Shown here: positions 6,318 to 28,529 of the stretch, piece by piece
Position numbering within the stretch: the first letter of the stretch is position 1
How the letters are laid out: the number at the start of each line of letters is the position of its first letter
Source of the DNA: Halococcus hamelinensis 100A6
GTDB lineage: Archaea; Halobacteriota; Halobacteria; Halobacteriales; Halococcaceae
Length of the DNA stretch: 64,000 nt
Assembly: GCF_000336675.1 (NCBI RefSeq)
Contig: NZ_AOMB01000032.1
Coordinates: 62,001 to 126,000, forward strand
Direction: 5' to 3'
The notes under the pieces: generated by a model
Database searches by the model: none
The model's input: the letters and a program-made list of their open reading frames with translations, nothing else
Told to the model about the DNA's origin: nothing
Program-made: the position numbers and the translations under genes

Positions 6318-9236
6318 ATGAGCCAACGCCGGGAACGCCTCGCCGATTCGGTTCCCGACCCGGTTCTCGACGCGGTCGAGTCGTGGTATCACGTCCCGCT
6401 TCTCCTCCTCCTCGTCGCGTTCATGCTCTGGATACGGGTCCGCAACTGGCGGAACTTCATCGTCGACGGCCAGGTCTACTTCAGCGGCAACGACGCCTGG
6501 TACCACCTCCGGCAGGTCCAGTACACCGTCCGACACTGGCCCAGCACGATGCCGATGGACCCCTGGACCGGCTTCCCCGAGGGCGCGACGGTCGGCCAGT
6601 TCGGCACCCTCTACGACCAGCTCGTCGCCACGGCGGCGCTGGTCGTCGGCGGCGGCAGTCCGTCGGCCCAGACCACCGCGCTCACGTTGCTGTTCGCGCC
6701 GGCGGTGCTGGGAACGCTGGTGGCGGTCCCCGCCTACTTCCTCGGCAAGCGGTTCGGCGGGCGGCTCGGTGGGCTGGTCGGGGTCGCGATACTCGCGTTC
6801 TCGCCCGGCTCCTTCCTCTCGCGCTCGATCGCCGGCTTCTCCGACCACCACGCCGCCGAGGTGTTCTTTCAGGTCCTCGCGGTCGCGCTCCTCGTGGTCG
6901 CCATCGTGGTCGGCGAGCGCGAGAAACCGATCTACGAGCAGTTCGTCGAGCGCGACGTCTCGAGCCTCCGAAAACCCGTCGGCTGGGCGGCGCTCGCGGG
7001 CCTCGGTTTTACGCTCTACGTCTGGGCCTGGCCGCCCGGCGTGCTTCTCGTGGGGGTCTTCGGCGTCTTCCTGCTCGTGGCGCTCCCCCTCCAGTTCCTC
7101 CGGGACGAGAGCCCCGAACACCTCGCGATCGTGGGCGCGGTCTCGCTCGGTGTCGCCGGCATACTGCTGCTCGCGACGTTCGACACCACCGAGGTCAGCG
7201 CGTCGAGCTTCTCGCTGCTCCAACCGCTGCTCGCGCTCGTCGGTGCGGTCGGCTGTGTCTTCCTCGCGTGGCTCGCACGCGTCGTCGAGCGCAGCGAGTA
7301 TCCCAGCTACGCCTACCCCGGAACGATCCTCGGGCTGTTCGTCGCCGTCGTGGTCGTGATGGCGGTCGCACTCCCCGACTTGCTCGACTTCTTCGTGAAC
7401 CAGCTCGTCCGTACCATCGGGCTGGGGTCGAACGCGACCGCCCTCACCGTCGGGGAGGCACAGCCGCCGTATAACGCGGGCGCTCCGTTCGGTCAGGCGG
7501 TGGGCCAGGCCGTCGGCTTCCTCTTCAACTCCTACGCGTTCGCGCTCGTCGGGGGTGCAGTTGGTGCGGCATTGATGCTGTTCGGCCTCGCGCGTGGCCG
7601 ACTGAAACACCGAACGGCGGCCGGGTTCGTGCTGCTCTGGACCGGCTTCATGCTCGCCGCGACCCTCACCCAGTCGCGGTTCGATTACTACCTCGTGACG
7701 CCGGTCGCGGTGCTGAACGCGTACCTCGTCGGCTGGGTCGTCGGCTACTTCGCCGAGACCGACGCCCGCGCGACCCTTCGAAGCCTCCACCTCCGCCAGG
7801 TCCTCACCGTGTTCGTGGTGGTGCTGTTCATCACCGCGCCGCTCGCGGTCGGCGGAAACGCGGGGGCGGTGACCTCCGCCGGGAGCTACGCCGACGGGAG
7901 TTCGACCCCCGGATCGACCATCCAGGGCTGGGACGGGGCGCTGGAGTGGCTCAACACCAGCACGCCCGCCGAGGGCACCTACGGCGGCGCGGACAACGAG
8001 ATGGGCTACTACGAGCGCTACGACCGCACGAACGACTTCGAGTATCCGAACGGCTCCTACGGGGTGATGTCGTGGTGGGACTACGGCCACTGGATCACCG
8101 TGCTCGGCCATCGGATCCCGGTGGCGAACCCGTTCCAGCAGAACGCCCACGAGGCCGCGAACTTCCTGCTCGCGCCGAACGAGTCCCGCGCCAACCAGAT
8201 CGCGAGTTCCCCCGAGGGGTCGGGCGACCGGTACGTGATGATCGACTGGCGGATGGGTGACGTCGCCGGGGGTGCGCTGTACACCGTGCCGTACACCTGG
8301 TACAACGACGGCCCGATATCGCTCTCCGACGACGTGTTCGTGGTCGCGAACCAGTCCTCGGGGAACCAGTTCATCGCGTACAACCAGCGCCACTACGAGA
8401 CGATGCGAACCCGGCTCTACGCCTTCCACGGCTCGGCGGTCGAACCCAAACCGGTCGTGATCGACTACGACACGACGCAGGCGACCTCCAGCGGCGTGCA
8501 GGCCGCGGTCGCGACCGGCGGCCATCCCACGGTTCGGCGGTTCGATAACATGAGTGCCGCGCGCGCCTACGTCAGGAACGACAGCACCTCCCAGATCGGC
8601 GGCGTCGGGAAGTACCCAGAGGAGTACGTCCCCGCGCTCCAGCACTACCGGCTGGTCAACGCGACGGAGACGAGCGGTCTCCTGAGCTCGCAGTCGTTCT
8701 ATCAGTCCCTGATCAACCAGAACCAATCGACGGGACTGAGCCCGAACGAGCTCTACGCCACCCCGCAGAACTGGGTCAAGACCTTCGAGCGGGTCGACGG
8801 GGCGACCGTCGAGGGACAGGGCCCGCCGAACAGCACCGTCGAGGCCAGCGTCGAGCTCCGGATGCCCGCCTCCCCGGTGCTCAACGACACGTTCACCTAC
8901 ACCCAGCGGGCGAACACCTCGGCCGACGGCTCGTTCACGATGACCCTGCCGTACTCCACGACGGGCTACGACCGGTGGGGCCCGGAGCAGGGCGCGACCA
9001 ACGTCTCGATCCGGGCGACGGGCCCGTACACGTTCGAGACGGCGGGCGCGAACGACACCCGGTCGAGCACGACCGTCGACGTCCCCGAGGGCGCGGTGAT
9101 CGGGCGAACCGACGGCCCGGTGACCGTCGACCTCCAGCGGGGGTCGGCATCGGGCTCGAACGCGACAACGAACGCCTCGACCGCCTCGGAACGCGCTCCC
9201 GTCGCTGAGACGACCGCCGCGAGCGTGGTACGATGA
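6318..9236 (+). CDS. aglB: Dolichyl-phosphooligosaccharide--protein glycotransferase AglB
   Basis: The STT3-type archaeal oligosaccharyltransferase, which moves the assembled glycan from dolichol (pyro)phosphate to Asn in N-x-S/T sequons on the outer face of the membrane. It is 972 residues long, usual for haloarchaea. The N-terminal half is a multi-helix membrane domain with FSGNDAWYHLRQV near 57-69, the catalytic-loop Asp region of STT3. The hallmark WWDYG is at 586-590 at the start of the soluble domain. The C-terminus (about 820-972) is Ser/Thr/Asn-rich and beta-like. The ATG at 6318 fits the TATA spacing. The gene stop overlaps the next start (ATGA at 9233), so it is coupled to the DUF368 transporter. 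Neighbouring transferases and flippase support an agl cluster. Confidence 0.96.
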   Translation: MSQRRERLADSVPDPVLDAVESWYHVPLLLLLVAFMLWIRVRNWRNFIVDGQVYFSGNDAWYHLRQVQYTVRHWPSTMPMDPWTGFPEGATVGQFGTLYDQLVATAALVVGGGSPSAQTTALTLLFAPAVLGTLVAVPAYFLGKRFGGRLGGLVGVAILAFSPGSFLSRSIAGFSDHHAAEVFFQVLAVALLVVAIVVGEREKPIYEQFVERDVSSLRKPVGWAALAGLGFTLYVWAWPPGVLLVGVFGVFLLVALPLQFLRDESPEHLAIVGAVSLGVAGILLLATFDTTEVSASSFSLLQPLLALVGAVGCVFLAWLARVVERSEYPSYAYPGTILGLFVAVVVVMAVALPDLLDFFVNQLVRTIGLGSNATALTVGEAQPPYNAGAPFGQAVGQAVGFLFNSYAFALVGGAVGAALMLFGLARGRLKHRTAAGFVLLWTGFMLAATLTQSRFDYYLVTPVAVLNAYLVGWVVGYFAETDARATLRSLHLRQVLTVFVVVLFITAPLAVGGNAGAVTSAGSYADGSSTPGSTIQGWDGALEWLNTSTPAEGTYGGADNEMGYYERYDRTNDFEYPNGSYGVMSWWDYGHWITVLGHRIPVANPFQQNAHEAANFLLAPNESRANQIASSPEGSGDRYVMIDWRMGDVAGGALYTVPYTWYNDGPISLSDDVFVVANQSSGNQFIAYNQRHYETMRTRLYAFHGSAVEPKPVVIDYDTTQATSSGVQAAVATGGHPTVRRFDNMSAARAYVRNDSTSQIGGVGKYPEEYVPALQHYRLVNATETSGLLSSQSFYQSLINQNQSTGLSPNELYATPQNWVKTFERVDGATVEGQGPPNSTVEASVELRMPASPVLNDTFTYTQRANTSADGSFTMTLPYSTTGYDRWGPEQGATNVSIRATGPYTFETAGANDTRSSTTVDVPEGAVIGRTDGPVTVDLQRGSASGSNATTNASTASERAPVAETTAASVVR

Positions 9237-15410: not shown

Positions 15411-16787
15411 ATGACGCTCTTCGGTACCGCGGGTATCCGCGGTCCGGCGATATCTCGGGTGACACCCGAACTCGCGCTCGCGGTCGGCCGGGCGGCGGGG
15501 CTCGACGCCTGCACGAGGGACGACGTGGACCCGACGTTCGTCGTCGCACGCGACGGTCGCGAGACGGGGTCCGGGCTCGTGGCCGCCCTCGAAGCGGGGC
15601 TCGAAAGCGCCGGCGTAGCCGTGCGCCGTGCGGGCGTGCTCCCGACGCCAGCGCTCGCGTTCGCCTCGCGGGGACGGCGCGGCGTGATGGTCACCGCGAG
15701 CCACAACCCGCCGGCCGACAACGGCCTGAAGCTCTTTCACGACGGCCAGGAGTACGACGACGACGCCGAGGCACGCATCGAAGCCAGGGTCGAGGACGAC
15801 GCTGGCCCGGTGGCGTGGGACGAGTGGGGGACGGCGGAGCGACTGTCCCCGCTCGGGGCGTATCACGAGGCGGTCGTGGACTACGCGGAGGAGTACGGCA
15901 CGGCGCTCGACGGCCTCGCCGTCGTCGTCGACTGCGGCAACGGAATGGCGAGCCGAGCGACCCCCCAGGTGCTCGACGAACTCGGCGCGGACGTCACGAC
16001 GTTGAACGCGAACGTCGACGGGTCGTTCCCCGCTCGTGGGTCGAAACCCACGCCCGCTACCCTCGGTGACATTCGGGCATTCCTCGCGGACGGCGACGCC
16101 GACCTCGGGTTCGCTCACGACGGCGACGCCGACCGGATCGTGGTGCTCGACGGTACCGGCGAGATCGTCCACGAGGACACAGTCGTGGCCGTGCTCGCCG
16201 AACGGTACACCCGCGCGAGCGACGCTACGGATCCGGTCGTGGTGACGACGCCGAACGCCTCCTCCCGGATCGACGACCGCGTCACCGCGGCGGGCGGGCG
16301 GGTCGAACGGGTGCGTTTGGGCGCGCTCCACGAGGGGGTCGCGGTGGCCCGCGCGGCGGGGACGGACGACACGCGAGTGGTGTTCGCGGCCGAGCCCTGG
16401 AAACACGTCCATCCCGGACACGGCCCCTGGATAGATGGCGTGGCGAGCGCCGCGGTCCTGGCGCGACTGGTTGCCGAGAGCGGTCTCGACGCCCTCCGCG
16501 AGCCTATCCAGGAACTCCCCTACCGAAAGGTGAGCGTCGACTGTCCCGACGACCGAAAGGGACCGGTGATGGAGCAGCTCGCGACGACCCTCCCGGACGA
16601 GTTCCCCGATAGCGAGGTCTCGACCGAGCACGGAGTCCGCATCGAGCGCGACGACGGCTGGGTGCTGGTGCGTCCGAGCGGTACCGAACCGAAGGTCAGG
16701 ATCTACGCCGAGAGCGAGCGGGTGGATGCGCTCATCGACCGAACCCGTCAAGTCATCGGGACCGCCATCGACCGACCGAACTCCTGA
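15411..16787 (+). CDS. Phosphohexomutase (phosphomannomutase / phosphoglucosamine mutase type)
   Basis: Interconverts hexose-6-phosphate and hexose-1-phosphate through a phosphoserine, supplying nucleotide-sugar synthesis. It is 458 residues long, typical for the alpha-D-phosphohexomutase family. The four signatures are present: TASHNPPADNG with the catalytic Ser at 97, metal-binding FAHDGDADR near 235-243, the sugar-binding AAEPWKH near 326 in place of the usual GEESGH-type loop, and phosphate-binding RPSGTEPK near 422. GATTAAGTAG at 15380-15389 is centred about 27 bp before the ATG and fits leaderless transcription. Whether it prefers mannose, glucose or glucosamine phosphates cannot be decided from sequence. 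It may feed the glycan cluster upstream. Confidence 0.9.
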   Translation: MTLFGTAGIRGPAISRVTPELALAVGRAAGLDACTRDDVDPTFVVARDGRETGSGLVAALEAGLESAGVAVRRAGVLPTPALAFASRGRRGVMVTASHNPPADNGLKLFHDGQEYDDDAEARIEARVEDDAGPVAWDEWGTAERLSPLGAYHEAVVDYAEEYGTALDGLAVVVDCGNGMASRATPQVLDELGADVTTLNANVDGSFPARGSKPTPATLGDIRAFLADGDADLGFAHDGDADRIVVLDGTGEIVHEDTVVAVLAERYTRASDATDPVVVTTPNASSRIDDRVTAAGGRVERVRLGALHEGVAVARAAGTDDTRVVFAAEPWKHVHPGHGPWIDGVASAAVLARLVAESGLDALREPIQELPYRKVSVDCPDDRKGPVMEQLATTLPDEFPDSEVSTEHGVRIERDDGWVLVRPSGTEPKVRIYAESERVDALIDRTRQVIGTAIDRPNS

Positions 16788-20167: not shown

Positions 20168-21241
20168 ATGACATCACTTGACGATGTTTTTATCGTGGAT
20201 GCGGTGTGCCACGCGTACGACCAGACCGAGGCGAACTACCGGGTGCCCGAATATGCAGCACAGGTGGTACAGATCGGCGTCGGCTTGGAGAACGCGATGC
20301 CGGACGGTTACGCACGCACGGAGGAAACCTTTCTCAGCGACTGGGCCATCGAGAACACGGAGAACGCGCTCTTCCGTGAAAGTCAGACGGATTTCAGCGT
20401 CATCCATCCACAGTCCATTGCGGCGTTCCACGACGGCCTTACCGCGCTCGATAAAGCGATCGCCTACCAGGAACGCAACCCGTACCGTGGCGCGGCGCTC
20501 GCCAGCATCGACGCTGTTGGGACGGACGACCCCGAGGCAGAACTGACGCGTCAGGTCGACGAGTTCGACCCCCACGGCGTGAAGGTCTATCCCTCTTACT
20601 GGGAGGAGGATGGGACCCACCATCCATTCAAAATGGACGATCCCGAGACCGCGTTCCCACTCTGGGAACGCGCGAGCGACCTCGGTCTCGACGTCGTCGC
20701 CGTCCACAAGGCCCTCCCGTTCGGCGCTGCCCCGATGGACTCCTACAAGGTCGGCGACGTCGAAGAAGCCGCCAACTGCTTCCCCGAACTCAACTTCGAG
20801 ATCGTCCACGGCGGATTGACGTTCGCCAAGGAGACCGGTTGGCAGATCGCCCGCCACTCGAACGTGTACGTCAACCTCGAACTCACCCTTGCGGAGGCCG
20901 TGACGACGCCGAAAACGTTCACCGAGACGTTTCAGGACCTCCTCTACGCTGGCGGGAAACACGCGGTCGACAAGATCCTCTGGGGAACCGGTGCGCCACA
21001 CTTCCATCCCCAGCTCCTCCTAGAGCGATTCTGGGAGTTCGACTTCCCCGAGATGGAGAGCTTCTCCGGGAGCTTCACGATCACGGAGGACGACAAGCGG
21101 AAGATCCTCGGGGCGAACTTTGCGGAGGCGCACAACTTCGACCTCGACGAACTGAAAGACCGAGCCGCGAAGGGCGAGTCCAGCACCGGGGAGACAGTGG
21201 CCGAACCGTGGTCGACGACGGACTTCGAGGTGGCATCGTGA
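20168..21241 (+). CDS. Amidohydrolase_2-family protein, diiron-monooxygenase-associated type
   Basis: A 357-residue TIM-barrel protein of the amidohydrolase_2 superfamily. It keeps barrel landmarks (FIVDAVCHAYDQ at 8-19, HGVKVYPSYWEE near 137, DVVAVHKALPFG near 175, FEIVHGGLTF near 211, KILWGTGAPHFHP near 273). However, the usual HxH start reads C-H-A-Y, and the usual GSDxP Asp position reads G-T-G-A-P. This variant resembles the amidohydrolase encoded beside soluble diiron monooxygenases (propane or mim type) in actinobacteria; that match is from memory. Its stop overlaps the GTG start of the DUF59 gene. No monooxygenase gene is in the window, so the pair is an orphan here. Confidence 0.85.
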   Translation: MTSLDDVFIVDAVCHAYDQTEANYRVPEYAAQVVQIGVGLENAMPDGYARTEETFLSDWAIENTENALFRESQTDFSVIHPQSIAAFHDGLTALDKAIAYQERNPYRGAALASIDAVGTDDPEAELTRQVDEFDPHGVKVYPSYWEEDGTHHPFKMDDPETAFPLWERASDLGLDVVAVHKALPFGAAPMDSYKVGDVEEAANCFPELNFEIVHGGLTFAKETGWQIARHSNVYVNLELTLAEAVTTPKTFTETFQDLLYAGGKHAVDKILWGTGAPHFHPQLLLERFWEFDFPEMESFSGSFTITEDDKRKILGANFAEAHNFDLDELKDRAAKGESSTGETVAEPWSTTDFEVAS

Positions 21242-21618
21242 CGACAACAGCGGCCGTCCGCGATGCGCTTCGGGGGATCGTGGACCCGTGCAGCGTGGCG
21301 ACGGGGTCCAACCTCGACATCGTCGAGATGGGGCTCGTCGAATCGATCGACGTCTCCGACGGACACGCCCGGGTCGGGATGCGACTCACGACGCCCGCGT
21401 GCCACATGGGTCCGTACTTCATCAAGGAGACCAAGGAGCGCGTCGGCGCGCTTCACGATGTAGAGTCGGTATCACTCGATACCGACGGTGGCTTCGAGTG
21501 GTCCGAGGACATGATGACCGACGATGCCAAGGAACGCCGTCAGGCAGTCCTCGACGAACAGGAACGACGCTACCGCGAGGAGATCGAGGCCGAGCGTCGT
21601 TCGGTCGTTCGAGAGTAG
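21238..21618 (+). CDS. DUF59 / MIP18-like metal-sulfur cluster assembly factor
   Basis: A 126-residue protein. Residues 5-90 form the DUF59 (PaaD/SufT/MIP18) alpha-beta domain: VRDALRGIVDPCSVATGSNL, then VEMGLVESIDVSDGHARVGM and LTTPACHMGPYFIKETKERV with the family Cys at about 56. The last 35 residues are a charged helix (ERRQAVLDEQERRYREEIEA). The start is a GTG at 21238 inside the end of the amidohydrolase gene, and no ATG lies nearby, so translation is coupled. DUF59 proteins help mature iron-containing enzymes. Together with the amidohydrolase it forms the accessory pair known from diiron monooxygenase loci. Confidence 0.85.
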   Translation: MTTTAAVRDALRGIVDPCSVATGSNLDIVEMGLVESIDVSDGHARVGMRLTTPACHMGPYFIKETKERVGALHDVESVSLDTDGGFEWSEDMMTDDAKERRQAVLDEQERRYREEIEAERRSVVRE

Positions 21619-21936: not shown

Positions 21937-23028
21937 ATGTACGAACGCACTCGACGACGGGTTCTCACGGCGAGCGGGACGGCAGCCCTCTCCGTGATGG
22001 GGCTGTCCGGCTGCGTCGGTCGAAGCAGTCCGAGCGGTAACGACAGCGCCAGCAGCACCAACAACAAGGGGGAAACCAGCCGTGCCGGCGGTGGGAGGAG
22101 TGGTGGAAAGCTCACGGTCGCCTACGTGCCGATCTACCCGAACATGCAGCACTACATCATGCAGGAGGAGGGCTACTACGACTCCCTCGCGACCGAGGTT
22201 ACGGCCAAGCGTTTCTCCGACGGCCCGAGCGTGGTCAAGGCGTTCGCGAGCGACGAGGTCGACATCGCGCTGTTCGGTGTCACGCCGGCCATGGTGCTCA
22301 CCGACAAGAGCAAGCAAGCCGACGTTCTGGCGGCGAACAGCCGGAACGGCTTCCGGGCGATGGCGACGAACGCGTTCGCCGACCTGTACGCGGACCGAGA
22401 GGGCGACGCGTTCGCGGCGTTCGAAAAGCAGGAGGGCCGGAAAGTGAAGTTCGGGGTCCCGCCGGACGGGAGCGTGCCGGATATCACCCTTCGTTACTGG
22501 ATCGAACGGGACCTCGGTCTGGGGGAACTGGAGTCGGTCGTGGAGAAGGTGACGGTGTCCCCGGCGAAGGCCCCACGGACGATGGGGAGCGGCGGGGTCG
22601 ATGCGACGATGATCCAGGAGCCGTTCGCGACGGTGATCGAAAACGAGCGGGGCTTCGGGGAGGTCGCCTGGTCGGGCGACGTCCTTCCGGGACACCCGGT
22701 CACGGTCACGTTCGTCCAGAACAGCGTTCCGAGAGACGTCGCCGAAGGGTTCGTCGAACAGCACAGCAAGGCGACGCAGTTCGTCCGGGAGAACCCGGCG
22801 AAGGCGGCTGCGGACGCCGCGGCGGTCATCGGGTCCGGTGTCAACGCTGACCTGGCCCGGAGAGCGATCGACTCGCGAGCTTCCGACTTCCTCTCGGACC
22901 CTCGCGAGGTACGAACGCAGTCCGAGGAGATGGCCGAACTCGTCGAGGAGGTCGGGAACACCGAGTCGACGGTTTCGCCGAAGCGGCTCTTCGACTTCGG
23001 CGTCTACGATGGAGTCTCGGAGCGATGA
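21937..23028 (+). CDS. ABC substrate-binding lipoprotein, NMT1/SsuA-like
   Basis: A 363-residue secreted binding protein. A Tat signal ([12 protein letters not shown]) and lipobox (LSGC, Cys26) start it, followed by a Ser/Asn/Gly-rich linker to about 55. The mature part begins [19 protein letters not shown] and contains [20 protein letters not shown] near 98-117 and [20 protein letters not shown] near 214, features of NMT1/THI5-like binding proteins for nitrate, sulfonates, taurine or pyrimidine precursors. The ATG at 21937 is used because the signal peptide begins there. It overlaps the permease gene by 4 bp and heads a three-gene importer operon. Substrate unknown. Confidence 0.88.
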
Positions 23029-23873
23029 GCGTCGGAACCGGCGACGCCGACTCGGCCACGGAAAAGCGGTCGTTCCCCGATCTGAACCCAGGCCGGATCG
23101 TGAGAGGGACCCTCGGGACCGCCGGATTTCTCGTGCTCTGGTGGGTCGCGTCGTCGCTGGTCGAACCGGCGTATCTCCTCCCGAGCCCGGCGGCGGCGGC
23201 AAGCGCCTTCGTCGAGCAGCTCACGATGAGCGCGTGGTTCACCGTCCCGCTGGTCGGTACCGAGATCCGAACGTCACGCATGGTGGTGAAACTCGCTCAG
23301 ACCCTGCTCCACTACGTTCCGGGGCTGCTCGTCGGTGCCTCGTCCGGTATCGCGTTCGGGATCGCCCTCGGCTGGAGCGGGCGGCTCGACGACGCGCTGA
23401 CGCCGGTCGTGCGGGTCCTCCGGCCGATCCCGCCGCTGGCGTGGGTCGTGTTCGCGATCGTGTGGTTCGGGATCGGACACGCCGGGGCGGCGTTCATCGT
23501 CTTCGTCGGCGCGTTCTGGATCAACGTCTACGGGGCGTACAGCGGCGTCGAGGACACGCCGGGGCGGCTCACGGAGGTCGCGTCGAGCCTCGGGGTGCGG
23601 GCGGACCTCGGGATGATCCGTCACGTCGTGTTGCCGAGCGCCGCCCCGCAGATCCTGACGAGCTTCCGGACGAGCATCGGCCGGTGTCTGATGATCGTCG
23701 TGGGCGCGGAGCTCTTCGGGGCCCCCGGGGTCGGCTACGAGATACTCAACGCCTCGAACAACCTCGCGATGGACACCAGCGTCGCGTACATGCTGGTGAT
23801 CAGCCTCGTCTATCTCGTGACCGACGGGGCGTTCCGCGGTCTCGAAGGGAGGATGCTCGCATGGCGCGAGTGA
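23025..23873 (+). CDS. ABC permease, SsuC/TauC/NrtB-like
   Basis: A 282-residue membrane subunit of the importer. Six hydrophobic segments are visible. The cytoplasmic EAA loop lies near 185-205 ([20 protein letters not shown] and [18 protein letters not shown]), where the ATPase docks. [20 protein letters not shown] near 35-54 is the typical entry of this permease class. The ATG at 23025 overlaps the binding-protein stop (ATGA), and its own stop lies inside the ATPase start region, so all three are co-translated. Nothing points to a specific substrate. Confidence 0.9.
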
Positions 23874-24727
23874 GCGACGGCGAGCCGGGACGGACCGACG
23901 ACTACACAACCGACGACTGCACGACCGCCACCGAACGTGCCGACGGAGCGGACCGGGCCAACGAGACGCCGGTGGTCCTCGTCGACGGGGTGAGCAAGCG
24001 CTACGAATCCGAGCGCCAGTCGGTACAGGCGCTCGACGACGTCCGGTTCACCGTCGAGACCGGCGAGTTCGTCTGTCTCGTCGGGCCGTCGGGCTGTGGA
24101 AAGACGACCCTCCTCCGAGCGGTCGCGGGGCTCGAAACGCCGACGAACGGGGCGGTCGTGGTCGACGGCGAGCGGGTCGAGGGACCGGGAACCGACCGCG
24201 GGATGGTGTTCCAGGAGTACGGCCTGTTCCCGTGGCTCACCGTCCAGGAGAACGTCTGTTTCGGGCTCGAACGCCAGGGAATGGCGCGAGAGGCCTGTGA
24301 CAACCGGTGTTACGAGATGCTCGACCTCGTCGGGCTCGACGGGTTCGCCGATGCCTACCCGAAAGAACTGAGCGGCGGCATGAAACAGCGGGTCGCCGTC
24401 GCCCGCGCGCTCGCCGTCGACCCCGAGATCCTCCTGCTGGACGAACCGTTCGGGAGCGTCGACGCGCGGACTCGCGAGCGGCTCCAGAACGAACTCCTCG
24501 ATATCTGGCGAACGACCGAGAAAACGACGCTGTTCGTGACCCACGAGGTCGACGAGGCCGTCGTTCTCGGCGACCGGGTCCTCGTCATGGGTGCCGACCC
24601 CGGCCGGGTAGTGGAGACGGTCGACGTCGACCTCCCGCGACCACGCTCGCGAACGGACGAGGCGTTCGTCGCGTACACCGAACGGGTCCGCTCGCTCATC
24701 GGCGGCGGGACGACCGATCGGTTTTAA
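23861..24727 (+). CDS. ABC ATP-binding protein, SsuB/TauB/NrtD-like
   Basis: A 288-residue ATPase. After an acidic, Thr-rich N-terminal tail of about 35 residues it shows Walker [12 protein letters not shown] near 75-85, the Q-loop [10 protein letters not shown] near 121, the ABC signature [15 protein letters not shown] near 169-183, Walker [13 protein letters not shown] near 190 and switch His [11 protein letters not shown] near 226. [12 protein letters not shown] is characteristic of the nitrate/sulfonate/taurine group. The ATG at 23861 overlaps the permease by 13 bp. It ends 24 bp before the NikR-like gene, whose own TATA-like TTTTAAC lies in the end of this gene. Confidence 0.92.
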
Positions 24728-24751: not shown

Positions 24752-25186
24752 ATGGAAGTCGTGAGCGTCTCGATGACGGACACCCTGCTCGACCGGATCG
24801 ACGGGTTCGCGGACGAACACGGGTACGCGGGTCGAAGCGAGGTGATGCGCGAAGCGGCACGGGGGCTGCTCGACGAGTTCGACGACGACCGACTCGCGGA
24901 CCGTGAACTGATGAGTACGGTCTCCGCGCTGTTCGAGTACGACAGCCCCCGCGTCGAGACCCGGATGCGGCGTCTCCGACACGAGTACGACGACCTCCTC
25001 GCCTCGACCACGCACGACTGCGTCGGCGAGGAGCACGGCTGCATGGAATCGTTCGTTCTCGAAGGCGACCTCGAGGAGATCTCGTCATTCGTCAGGAAGG
25101 TTCGCGCCGTGGACGAAGCGCTGACCGTCGAGTACACCCTCCTCCCCATCGAGCCCATCGACGAGCGACCCGTCCACACCGAGTGA
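24752..25186 (+). CDS. NikR-like metal-responsive ribbon-helix-helix regulator
   Basis: A 144-residue regulator with NikR architecture. Residues 1-45 are a ribbon-helix-helix (VVSVSMTDTLLDRIDGFADE, then GRSEVMREAARGLL). Residues 55-140 form an ACT-like metal-binding domain. His77, His88, Cys90 and Cys97, plus His95, fall close to the E. coli NikR ligands His76, His87, His89 and Cys95, so a metal site is likely, though one His is replaced by Cys. It directly follows the NMT1-type ABC importer and may control it and itself. The metal could be nickel, cobalt or another thiophilic ion. Family assignment is strong; the regulon is inference. Confidence 0.85.
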   Translation: MEVVSVSMTDTLLDRIDGFADEHGYAGRSEVMREAARGLLDEFDDDRLADRELMSTVSALFEYDSPRVETRMRRLRHEYDDLLASTTHDCVGEEHGCMESFVLEGDLEEISSFVRKVRAVDEALTVEYTLLPIEPIDERPVHTE

Positions 25187-25260: not shown

Positions 25261-26022
25261 ATGGCAATCGACACCGACCAGATAGACGGTTCGACGGCGG
25301 TCGTCACCGGTGCGTCCTCCGGGATCGGCGAAGCGACGGCCAGTGCGCTCGCCGACGAGGGGGCGAACGTCGTTCTCGCCGCACGCCGCGAGGACGAACT
25401 CGAATCGCTCGCCGACGCGATCGAAGCCGACGGCGGCCGCGCGCTCGCCGTCCCCACCGACGTCACGAACGAGGACGACCTCGACGCGCTCGTCGACGCC
25501 GCGCTGGAGACCTTCGGGACGATCGATATCCTCGTGAACAACGCCGGCGTGATGCTCCTCGAACCCGTCGAGCGCGCCGACCGCGAGAACTTCCGGCAGA
25601 TGGTCGAGGTCAACCTCCTCGGGCTGATGAACCTCACCCACGCCGTCCTCCCGGTGATGCAGGACCAGGGGAGCGGCCACATCGTCAACGTCTCCTCGAC
25701 GGCCGGTCGGCAGGCGAACGCGAACTCCTCGGGCTACAACGCGACGAAGTTCGGTGTCAACGGGTTCACCGAGGCGCTCCGCCAGGAGGTCACGGGGGAG
25801 GGGGTCCGCACGACGATAATCGAGCCCGGCGCGGTCGAGACCGAACTCCCGGAGCACATCCCCGACGAGGAGGTCAAAGAGCAGATGGAGGAGGGCCTGT
25901 TCGATTCGATGACACCACTCCAGAGCGAGGACATCGCGCGGGCGGTCGCCTACGCCGTGACCCAGCCCCAGCACGTCAGCATCAACGAGATGCTGGTTCG
26001 GCCGACCGACCAGCAGCGCTGA
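25261..26022 (+). CDS. Short-chain dehydrogenase/reductase (YdfG-like)
   Basis: A 253-residue classical SDR oxidoreductase using NAD(P)H. It has the cofactor motif TGASSGIG near 16-23, NNAG near 91-94, catalytic Ser in VNVSSTAGRQ near 142, and Tyr/Lys in YNATK near 155-159. A basic pair after the second strand (AARREDE near 41) favours NADP over NAD. The family handles short-chain alcohols, serine or 3-hydroxy acids, so the substrate is open. It stands alone between the NikR-like gene and the PRC-barrel gene, with no overlap with either. Confidence 0.9.
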   Translation: MAIDTDQIDGSTAVVTGASSGIGEATASALADEGANVVLAARREDELESLADAIEADGGRALAVPTDVTNEDDLDALVDAALETFGTIDILVNNAGVMLLEPVERADRENFRQMVEVNLLGLMNLTHAVLPVMQDQGSGHIVNVSSTAGRQANANSSGYNATKFGVNGFTEALRQEVTGEGVRTTIIEPGAVETELPEHIPDEEVKEQMEEGLFDSMTPLQSEDIARAVAYAVTQPQHVSINEMLVRPTDQQR

Positions 26023-27470: not shown

Positions 27471-28529
27471 TCAATCGAGCGCCGCGAGGTCCGCTTCGAG
27501 CGCGTCGGCTGCATCGAGTCGAAGCCGTTCGGCGGTCGCTTCGTCGAGGCGGGCCGGTCCCGATATCGAAGCCGTGAGCGGCCGATAGTTCGCCGGGTCG
27601 AAGTCCATCGTTTCGAGGTACTCGCGGACGGCCGGAGCACCGATGCCGTCCTCGACGGCCGCGTCGGTCAGCTCGCGGAGTTCGGCGAAGGGCGGAACGC
27701 CGATCCGCTCGTCGCCGGTCCCGGGGTCGCCGACCTGTACCGGGGTGTCGTTCGTGCGTTCGACGAGGTTCGCGACCGTCTCGACCAGTTCGAGAACCTG
27801 GCTCGGAAGCGCCGTGTCGGGCGCGCGCCACTCGACCGTCGGCTGCTTCCCGCGGAGCCGTACCGGCGTCAGCACCGCGTTCTCGGGCTGGAAGTGCTCG
27901 CCGAACGCCGCGTCGTCGATGCCCGCCTCACGCGCGAGCGCTTGCAGCTCACGATAGCGAGCCTCGATGCGGTTCTCCCACTCCGCGACGTCGGTCGTGT
28001 ACTCCCAGAGGTCGCGATAGCGCTCGAATCGCACGCCGGACTCGTGACGGTAGACGTGGGCCCGCGAGCAGTTCGCGATGCGCTCGCCGCGGTAGTACGG
28101 CGACGAGCTCACCAGCGCGAGCGCGGGGTCGAGCGCGGTCAGCAGGTTCAGCTGTCGTGTCACGCGCTCGCGCTCGAAGTGAACGTGCGTGCCGGCACAG
28201 TTCTTCGCGGGCTCGATACCGTCGCCGTAGATGCGTTCGAGGAGCTTCCCCCGGGCCGACCGGACCGCCCCGGTCTGTGACGACAGCGGCGTTCCGAGCG
28301 GAACGAGCCGTCGTCCATCGGACGCGGCGGCCCCGATCACGGTTTCGAGCACCTCGACGAGCGTCTCGCGGAGTTCCGGGATCGAACCGACCGGCGGGGT
28401 TTCGACCTCGATCATCGCGTCGACGAACTCGGGCGAGACCCGGTCGTGCGCCTCGACGAGGTCGCGCCCGTCGCACAACCTCCCTCCCCCGTCGACCACC
28501 CAGTATTCGGCTTCCAGTCCTAATCGCAT
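27471..28529 (-). CDS. Glutamate-cysteine ligase family protein (GCS2)
   Basis: A 352-residue ATP-dependent carboxylate-amine ligase of the GCS2/YbdK family. It starts LGLEAEYWVVDGGG with the substrate-binding Glu residues, has CAGTHVHFERERVTRQLNLL near 112 (metal-binding His/Glu) and TVEWRAPDTALPSQVLELVE near 228. Haloarchaea make gamma-glutamylcysteine as their main thiol with a member of this family, so this may be that enzyme or one of the paralogues; sequence alone does not decide. The ATG at 28529 is where the conserved LEAEYW begins. No partner gene lies next to it. Confidence 0.82.
   Translation of the reverse strand: MRLGLEAEYWVVDGGGRLCDGRDLVEAHDRVSPEFVDAMIEVETPPVGSIPELRETLVEVLETVIGAAASDGRRLVPLGTPLSSQTGAVRSARGKLLERIYGDGIEPAKNCAGTHVHFERERVTRQLNLLTALDPALALVSSSPYYRGERIANCSRAHVYRHESGVRFERYRDLWEYTTDVAEWENRIEARYRELQALAREAGIDDAAFGEHFQPENAVLTPVRLRGKQPTVEWRAPDTALPSQVLELVETVANLVERTNDTPVQVGDPGTGDERIGVPPFAELRELTDAAVEDGIGAPAVREYLETMDFDPANYRPLTASISGPARLDEATAERLRLDAADALEADLAALD

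Follow-up and report, generated by a model that had tools for sequence, protein, structure and literature searches.

Pairing of a two-cysteine DUF59 protein with an amidohydrolase-fold protein of altered metal site in Halococcus hamelinensis

Amidohydrolase and DUF59 genes occur together in the prm- and mim-type clusters of soluble diiron monooxygenases (SDIMOs), which carry an amidohydrolase, a DUF59 protein and a GroEL (PMC4428276, PMC6849523). In Mycobacterium sp. AT1, the amidohydrolase, an unknown protein and an alcohol dehydrogenase are encoded apart from the propane monooxygenase, where GroEL remains, and, as far as the accessible text of that report goes, only the GroEL-like protein is described as essential for the monooxygenase (PMC6849523). 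No functional study of the pair and no biochemical data on any member were found in the literature. DUF59 proteins as such share the motif DPE-X26-31-T-X2/3-C, the D, E, T and C of which lie on solvent-exposed loops, with a pocket in several structures (PMC9045647). SufT homologues have one strictly conserved Cys, which has been remarked on as atypical of proteins that carry clusters, two or more being the rule in Fe-S carriers (PMC4982691), and the one-Cys SufT of Mycobacterium tuberculosis (Mtb) was reported to bind neither Fe nor a cluster (PMC9045647).

The window, the whole stretch of 64,000 nucleotides analysed here, contains a pair of these two families, as the preliminary description had stated. 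An ATG-started gene (20168-21241, + strand) encodes a 357-aa amidohydrolase-fold protein, P0001, which matches PF04909 Amidohydro_2 (E 6e-20) with 72.5 bits, above the curated cut-off of 26.4. The following GTG-started gene (21238-21618, + strand) encodes a 126-aa DUF59/FeS_assembly_P protein, P0002, which matches PF01883 (E 7e-13) with 49.1 bits, above the cut-off of 23.5. The start codon of P0002 and the stop codon of P0001 overlap by 4 nt (GTGA). The closest relative pair, in a congener (genome G008, locus L042), is 96% (P0001) and 87% (P0002) identical and has ATG at the aligned position, which makes the GTG start of P0002 credible. The third-position GC values, 0.81 for P0001 and 0.80 for P0002, are similar to those of the neighbouring genes.

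The neighbours are also as previously described. A tyrosine recombinase (XerC/D-like integrase, PF00589; 18904-19932, + strand) lies upstream and probably has no functional tie to the pair. Downstream, an ABC importer begins with an NMT1_2/SsuA-type substrate-binding lipoprotein (21937-23028, + strand), followed by a permease (BPD_transp_1; 23025-23873, + strand) and an ATPase (ORF end at 24727), and a short-chain dehydrogenase gene (SDR; 25261-26022, + strand) follows some 4 kb after the amidohydrolase gene. The importer adjoins the pair only in this genome and G008, and the importer and SDR are common to the window and G008 only. Right after this SsuA/TauA-type importer, a NikR_C-domain ribbon-helix-helix protein is encoded (24752-25186), perhaps a metal-responsive regulator. 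The idea that the recombinase delimits a mobile island was considered and rejected. A clean empty site could not be identified, since in the other congeners the homologues of the genes on either side (15411-16787 and 27471-28529) are on separate contigs or widely spaced, and G008 has the recombinase at the same position. A promoter and terminator scan, the scope of which does not extend to archaeal promoters, gave nothing clearly above chance.

Compared with the pairs of SDIMO clusters (Gordonia TY-5, M. smegmatis and Rhodococcus BCP1; loci L010, L076 and L078-L081, with hydroxylase and GroEL alongside), the window pair agrees in its two families, their order and their direct adjacency, and the amidohydrolases share D11, N23, K139, Y141, H180-K181, D197 and H214. 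In contrast, the SDIMO-linked amidohydrolases are only 25-27% identical to P0001 and retain the HxH motif and the beta8 Asp, and their DUF59 partners are roughly 250-280 aa long with a DPE loop, whereas P0002 has 126 aa and a DPC loop. Neither GroEL nor an SDIMO hydroxylase was matched within 8 kb of the window pair, in agreement with the preliminary description.

The amidohydrolase homologues split into clades A and B in both trees (support for the A core 99/95 in the careful tree), a split that is surer than the position of the root, owing to the long end branches to the outgroup. Clade A comprises the window protein with its subclade A1 (58-96% identity), subclades A2 and A3, and proteobacterial and actinobacterial members on plasmids; loci L052, L071, L069 and L082 diverge at the base of the A side and were tallied separately. 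Clade B, whose members are 25-31% identical to the window protein, comprises the SDIMO-linked proteins and a widespread haloarchaeal set without SDIMO. In NCBIfam, the amidohydrolases of both clades are without a name. A single clade for A1 and the SDIMO-linked proteins was rejected (AU p 7e-9). These results indicate that the window pair is a distant cousin of the SDIMO-linked pairs, inherited independently of them. The preliminary description was right that prm/mim clusters carry such accessory genes, but the window pair is very probably not their orphan, and its amidohydrolase does not group with theirs.

The haloarchaeal clade B module (zinc alcohol dehydrogenase, divergent from an amidohydrolase followed by a DUF59 protein of about 250 aa) is the same pair, likewise without SDIMO, yet it differs from the window pair in its canonical metal ligands, DPE loop, longer DUF59 protein and low identity (27%). 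The genome of the window itself holds a second pair of this type (G000:C41:50301-51278, locus L058), with a canonical metal site and a zinc alcohol dehydrogenase in divergent orientation; comparable clade B matches are numerous among the 392 genomes of the class.

Among the assessable rows of the two clades, the pairing is without exception. The DUF59 gene adjoins the amidohydrolase gene in 61/61 assessable rows of clade A and 29/29 of clade B, and follows it in every case but Thermomicrobium (L065), in which the DUF59 gene comes first. In the 392 class genomes, an amidohydrolase of at least 39% identity was found at 32 places, and the 32 best DUF59 matches sit one-to-one directly behind these, which excludes chance pairing. 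The distance matrices of the two proteins correlate (Mantel r 0.91, 0/2000 permutations), which largely reflects shared ancestry. In Shinella (L082, 9002-9298) and Ensifer (L069, 10011-10319), a NifU-domain gene (PF01106 E 3e-12 and a 4 nt overlap in Shinella) takes the DUF59 slot behind the amidohydrolase, suggesting that an Fe-S-type partner is kept despite the change of family. The amidohydrolases of these two loci have Glu at the beta8 position. In another basal relative of clade A (L052 in G012, complement of about 6700-7100), the DUF59-like partner lacks DP and has CC instead, in a gene call that is not clean.

The canonical metal ligands of Amidohydro_2 proteins are an HxH motif on beta1, a His on each of beta5 and beta6, and an Asp on beta8. 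By alignment, on which the equivalence of all these positions rests, the site of P0001 consists of V13 in place of the first His of HxH, H15, K139, Y141, H180-K181, H214, G275 in place of the Asp, and H280 of an HPQ motif. These changes mark the whole clade. The first His of HxH is absent in 62/62 clade A proteins (V/I/S13) and present in 30/30 of clade B, the beta8 Asp is absent in 62/62 (G/A275) and present as D275 in 30/30, and conversely H280 occurs in 62/62 of clade A and 0/30 of clade B. H15, H180 and H214 are invariant in clade A, and the canonical ligands of clade B are complete save for one row without the second His. In addition, N23, K139, Y141, H180-K181, D197 and H214 are conserved across both clades. 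The PF04909 match of P0001 spans only positions 76-282 of the 289 of the profile, whereas clade B proteins match 1-289. A phmmer search of the PDB with P0001 gave no match, and the family profile matched only 3irs (E 1e-9), the solved structure of the uncharacterised Amidohydro_2 protein BB4693, of which residues 77-265 alone align. An AlphaFold model of P0001 built from 3 sequences was too poor for geometry (pLDDT 48.5).

For P0002, the T and C of the published motif are present, and the DPE is replaced by a DPC loop (C18) followed by a 5-residue insert. C18 is present in 61/61 clade A partners and 0/29 clade B partners, whereas the canonical Cys (C55) is retained throughout. Among 13 unpaired haloarchaeal DUF59 proteins, C18 was found in 0/13; they carry DPE throughout, apart from DPD in the one encoded by the window's own genome. 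P0002 shares the DUF59 domain, above the Pfam cut-off, and the conserved T and Cys with SufT, PaaD and MIP18, which keep DPE and do not have the DPC loop with its insert. It scored 40-47 bits against the SufT (TIGR02945/TIGR03406) and PaaD (NF041868) models, far below their equivalog cut-offs of 143-203, and the nearest solved structures are 1uwd (TM0487) and 5ird (Mtb SufT). Taken with the changes in the amidohydrolase, these data identify clade A as a remodelled version of the amidohydrolase-DUF59 pair.

The genes around the pair vary by clade. At haloarchaeal loci, a dehydrogenase lies within 1 kb of the pair in 2/19 cases for A1, 9/14 for A2, 23/23 for A3 and 9/10 for B. The A2 and A3 pairs adjoin SDR, alcohol dehydrogenase (ADH) or aldehyde dehydrogenase (ALDH) genes and acyl-CoA ligases, with a dehydrogenase density of 0.39-0.50 per kb near the pair versus 0.00-0.05 far from it, and the haloarchaeal clade B pairs are mostly beside the divergent zinc alcohol dehydrogenase. 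The A1 pairs are mostly alone, although in Natrialba (L002) an ADH of the clade B type (55% identical) is encoded divergently beside an A1 pair. Since a dehydrogenase is within 1 kb in only 2/19 A1 loci, the catabolic context of the window pair is borrowed from its relatives.

The reading that we consider most likely, with a probability of roughly 0.4, is a self-contained two-gene unit in which P0002 would load a metal or an Fe-S centre specifically into P0001, the enzyme encoded directly upstream. It is favoured above all because both presumed metal-handling sites changed in the same clade and because an Fe-S-type partner is kept in Shinella and Ensifer. The constant pairing and the dehydrogenases near most related subclades also speak for it, and the reported lack of Fe binding by Mtb SufT speaks against it. 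P0001 would then be a working catabolic enzyme, probably one that helps to oxidise small alcohols, ketones or aldehydes. Its centre would have moved from the canonical HxH/His/His/Asp set to H15, H180, H214 and possibly H280, and P0002 would have changed in parallel from a DPE loop to the Cys-bearing DPC loop. In the mim cluster, the amidohydrolase makes up 3.2% of the proteome, which is in the range of MimA (1.8%), MimC (3.8%) and Adh1 (6.1%) and suits the role of an enzyme, yet the GroEL-like MimG is equally abundant (4.0%; PMC7176365).

A possible but more doubtful account is that the two proteins together mature a third metalloenzyme, encoded elsewhere, with P0001 as a scaffold or client adaptor and P0002 as the supplier of metal. 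DUF59 proteins such as SufT do serve as maturation factors (PMC4982691), and the DUF59 protein PaaD is required in vivo for the diiron monooxygenase PaaABCE (PMC4498308). Conservation of N23, K139, Y141, H180-K181, D197 and H214 in both clades despite their different metal sites is also what a binding role would lead one to expect, and the solitary A1 pairs allow a client in trans. On the other hand, no constant client gene was found beside the pair, and the obvious diiron clients are missing from the window's own genome, where searches of the assembly, about 96% complete, for PaaA/PaaC (PF05138) and for the SDIMO hydroxylase (PF02332) gave no match.

Having lost two canonical metal ligands, P0001 could also be catalytically inactive, binding P0002 and a ligand in a regulatory or structurally supporting role. 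The loss of the first HxH His and the beta8 Asp throughout clade A and the Pfam match that no longer reaches the N-terminal HxH part are consistent with this. We nevertheless regard it as unlikely, since the remaining pocket residues are strongly conserved, with H280 in every clade A protein, which points to a changed rather than an abandoned site.

The preliminary description had further proposed that the hydroxylase served by the pair might be encoded elsewhere in the genome. The PF02332 search covered the whole genome (3.42 Mb, about 96% complete) and returned 0 matches, whereas both subunits were recovered from the plasmid of locus L010 as a positive control. Among the 392 class genomes, an SDIMO occurs in 4 and an amidohydrolase match in 175. 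No amidohydrolase, DUF59 or GroEL gene of this type accompanies any of the four haloarchaeal SDIMO loci (L158, L159, L160 and L161), two of which are truncated by contig ends. Two of these four genomes, from one genus, also hold an A1 pair, 304 kb from the SDIMO in G271 and on a different contig in G382. The co-occurrence data agree with the layout in Mycobacterium sp. AT1 in suggesting that the module is separable from the monooxygenase (PMC6849523). The outcomes that the preliminary description had set against its own proposal were thus found in part: the amidohydrolase does not travel with monooxygenases, but it does not simply fall among unrelated decarboxylases either, forming instead a distinct sister clade that is always paired with DUF59. 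Despite the distant homology to the SDIMO-linked amidohydrolases and the two genomes that hold both, it is very unlikely that the window pair is the orphan accessory of a propane/mim-type SDIMO, given the missing hydroxylase, the rarity of SDIMOs in the class, their loci without such genes, the rejected grouping, and the clade B pair of the same genome, which is nearer to the SDIMO-linked kind and also lacks an SDIMO.

Within the loader and acceptor reading, the two-Cys DUF59 protein might be a genuine metal or Fe-S carrier dedicated to an amidohydrolase-fold enzyme with a metal site that was remodelled in parallel, possibly into an iron or Fe-S centre new to the superfamily; this stronger form is conceivable but rather improbable. 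The known DUF59 proteins have a single conserved cysteine. The clade A partners form a natural DUF59 family in which two cysteines are invariant at the conserved motif and which goes with a single partner of altered metal site, and such a compact two-gene system makes metal transfer by a DUF59 protein directly testable. In addition, the module of amidohydrolase and DUF59 genes found next to propane monooxygenases belongs to a far larger family that is used without a monooxygenase and is often accompanied by a zinc alcohol dehydrogenase.
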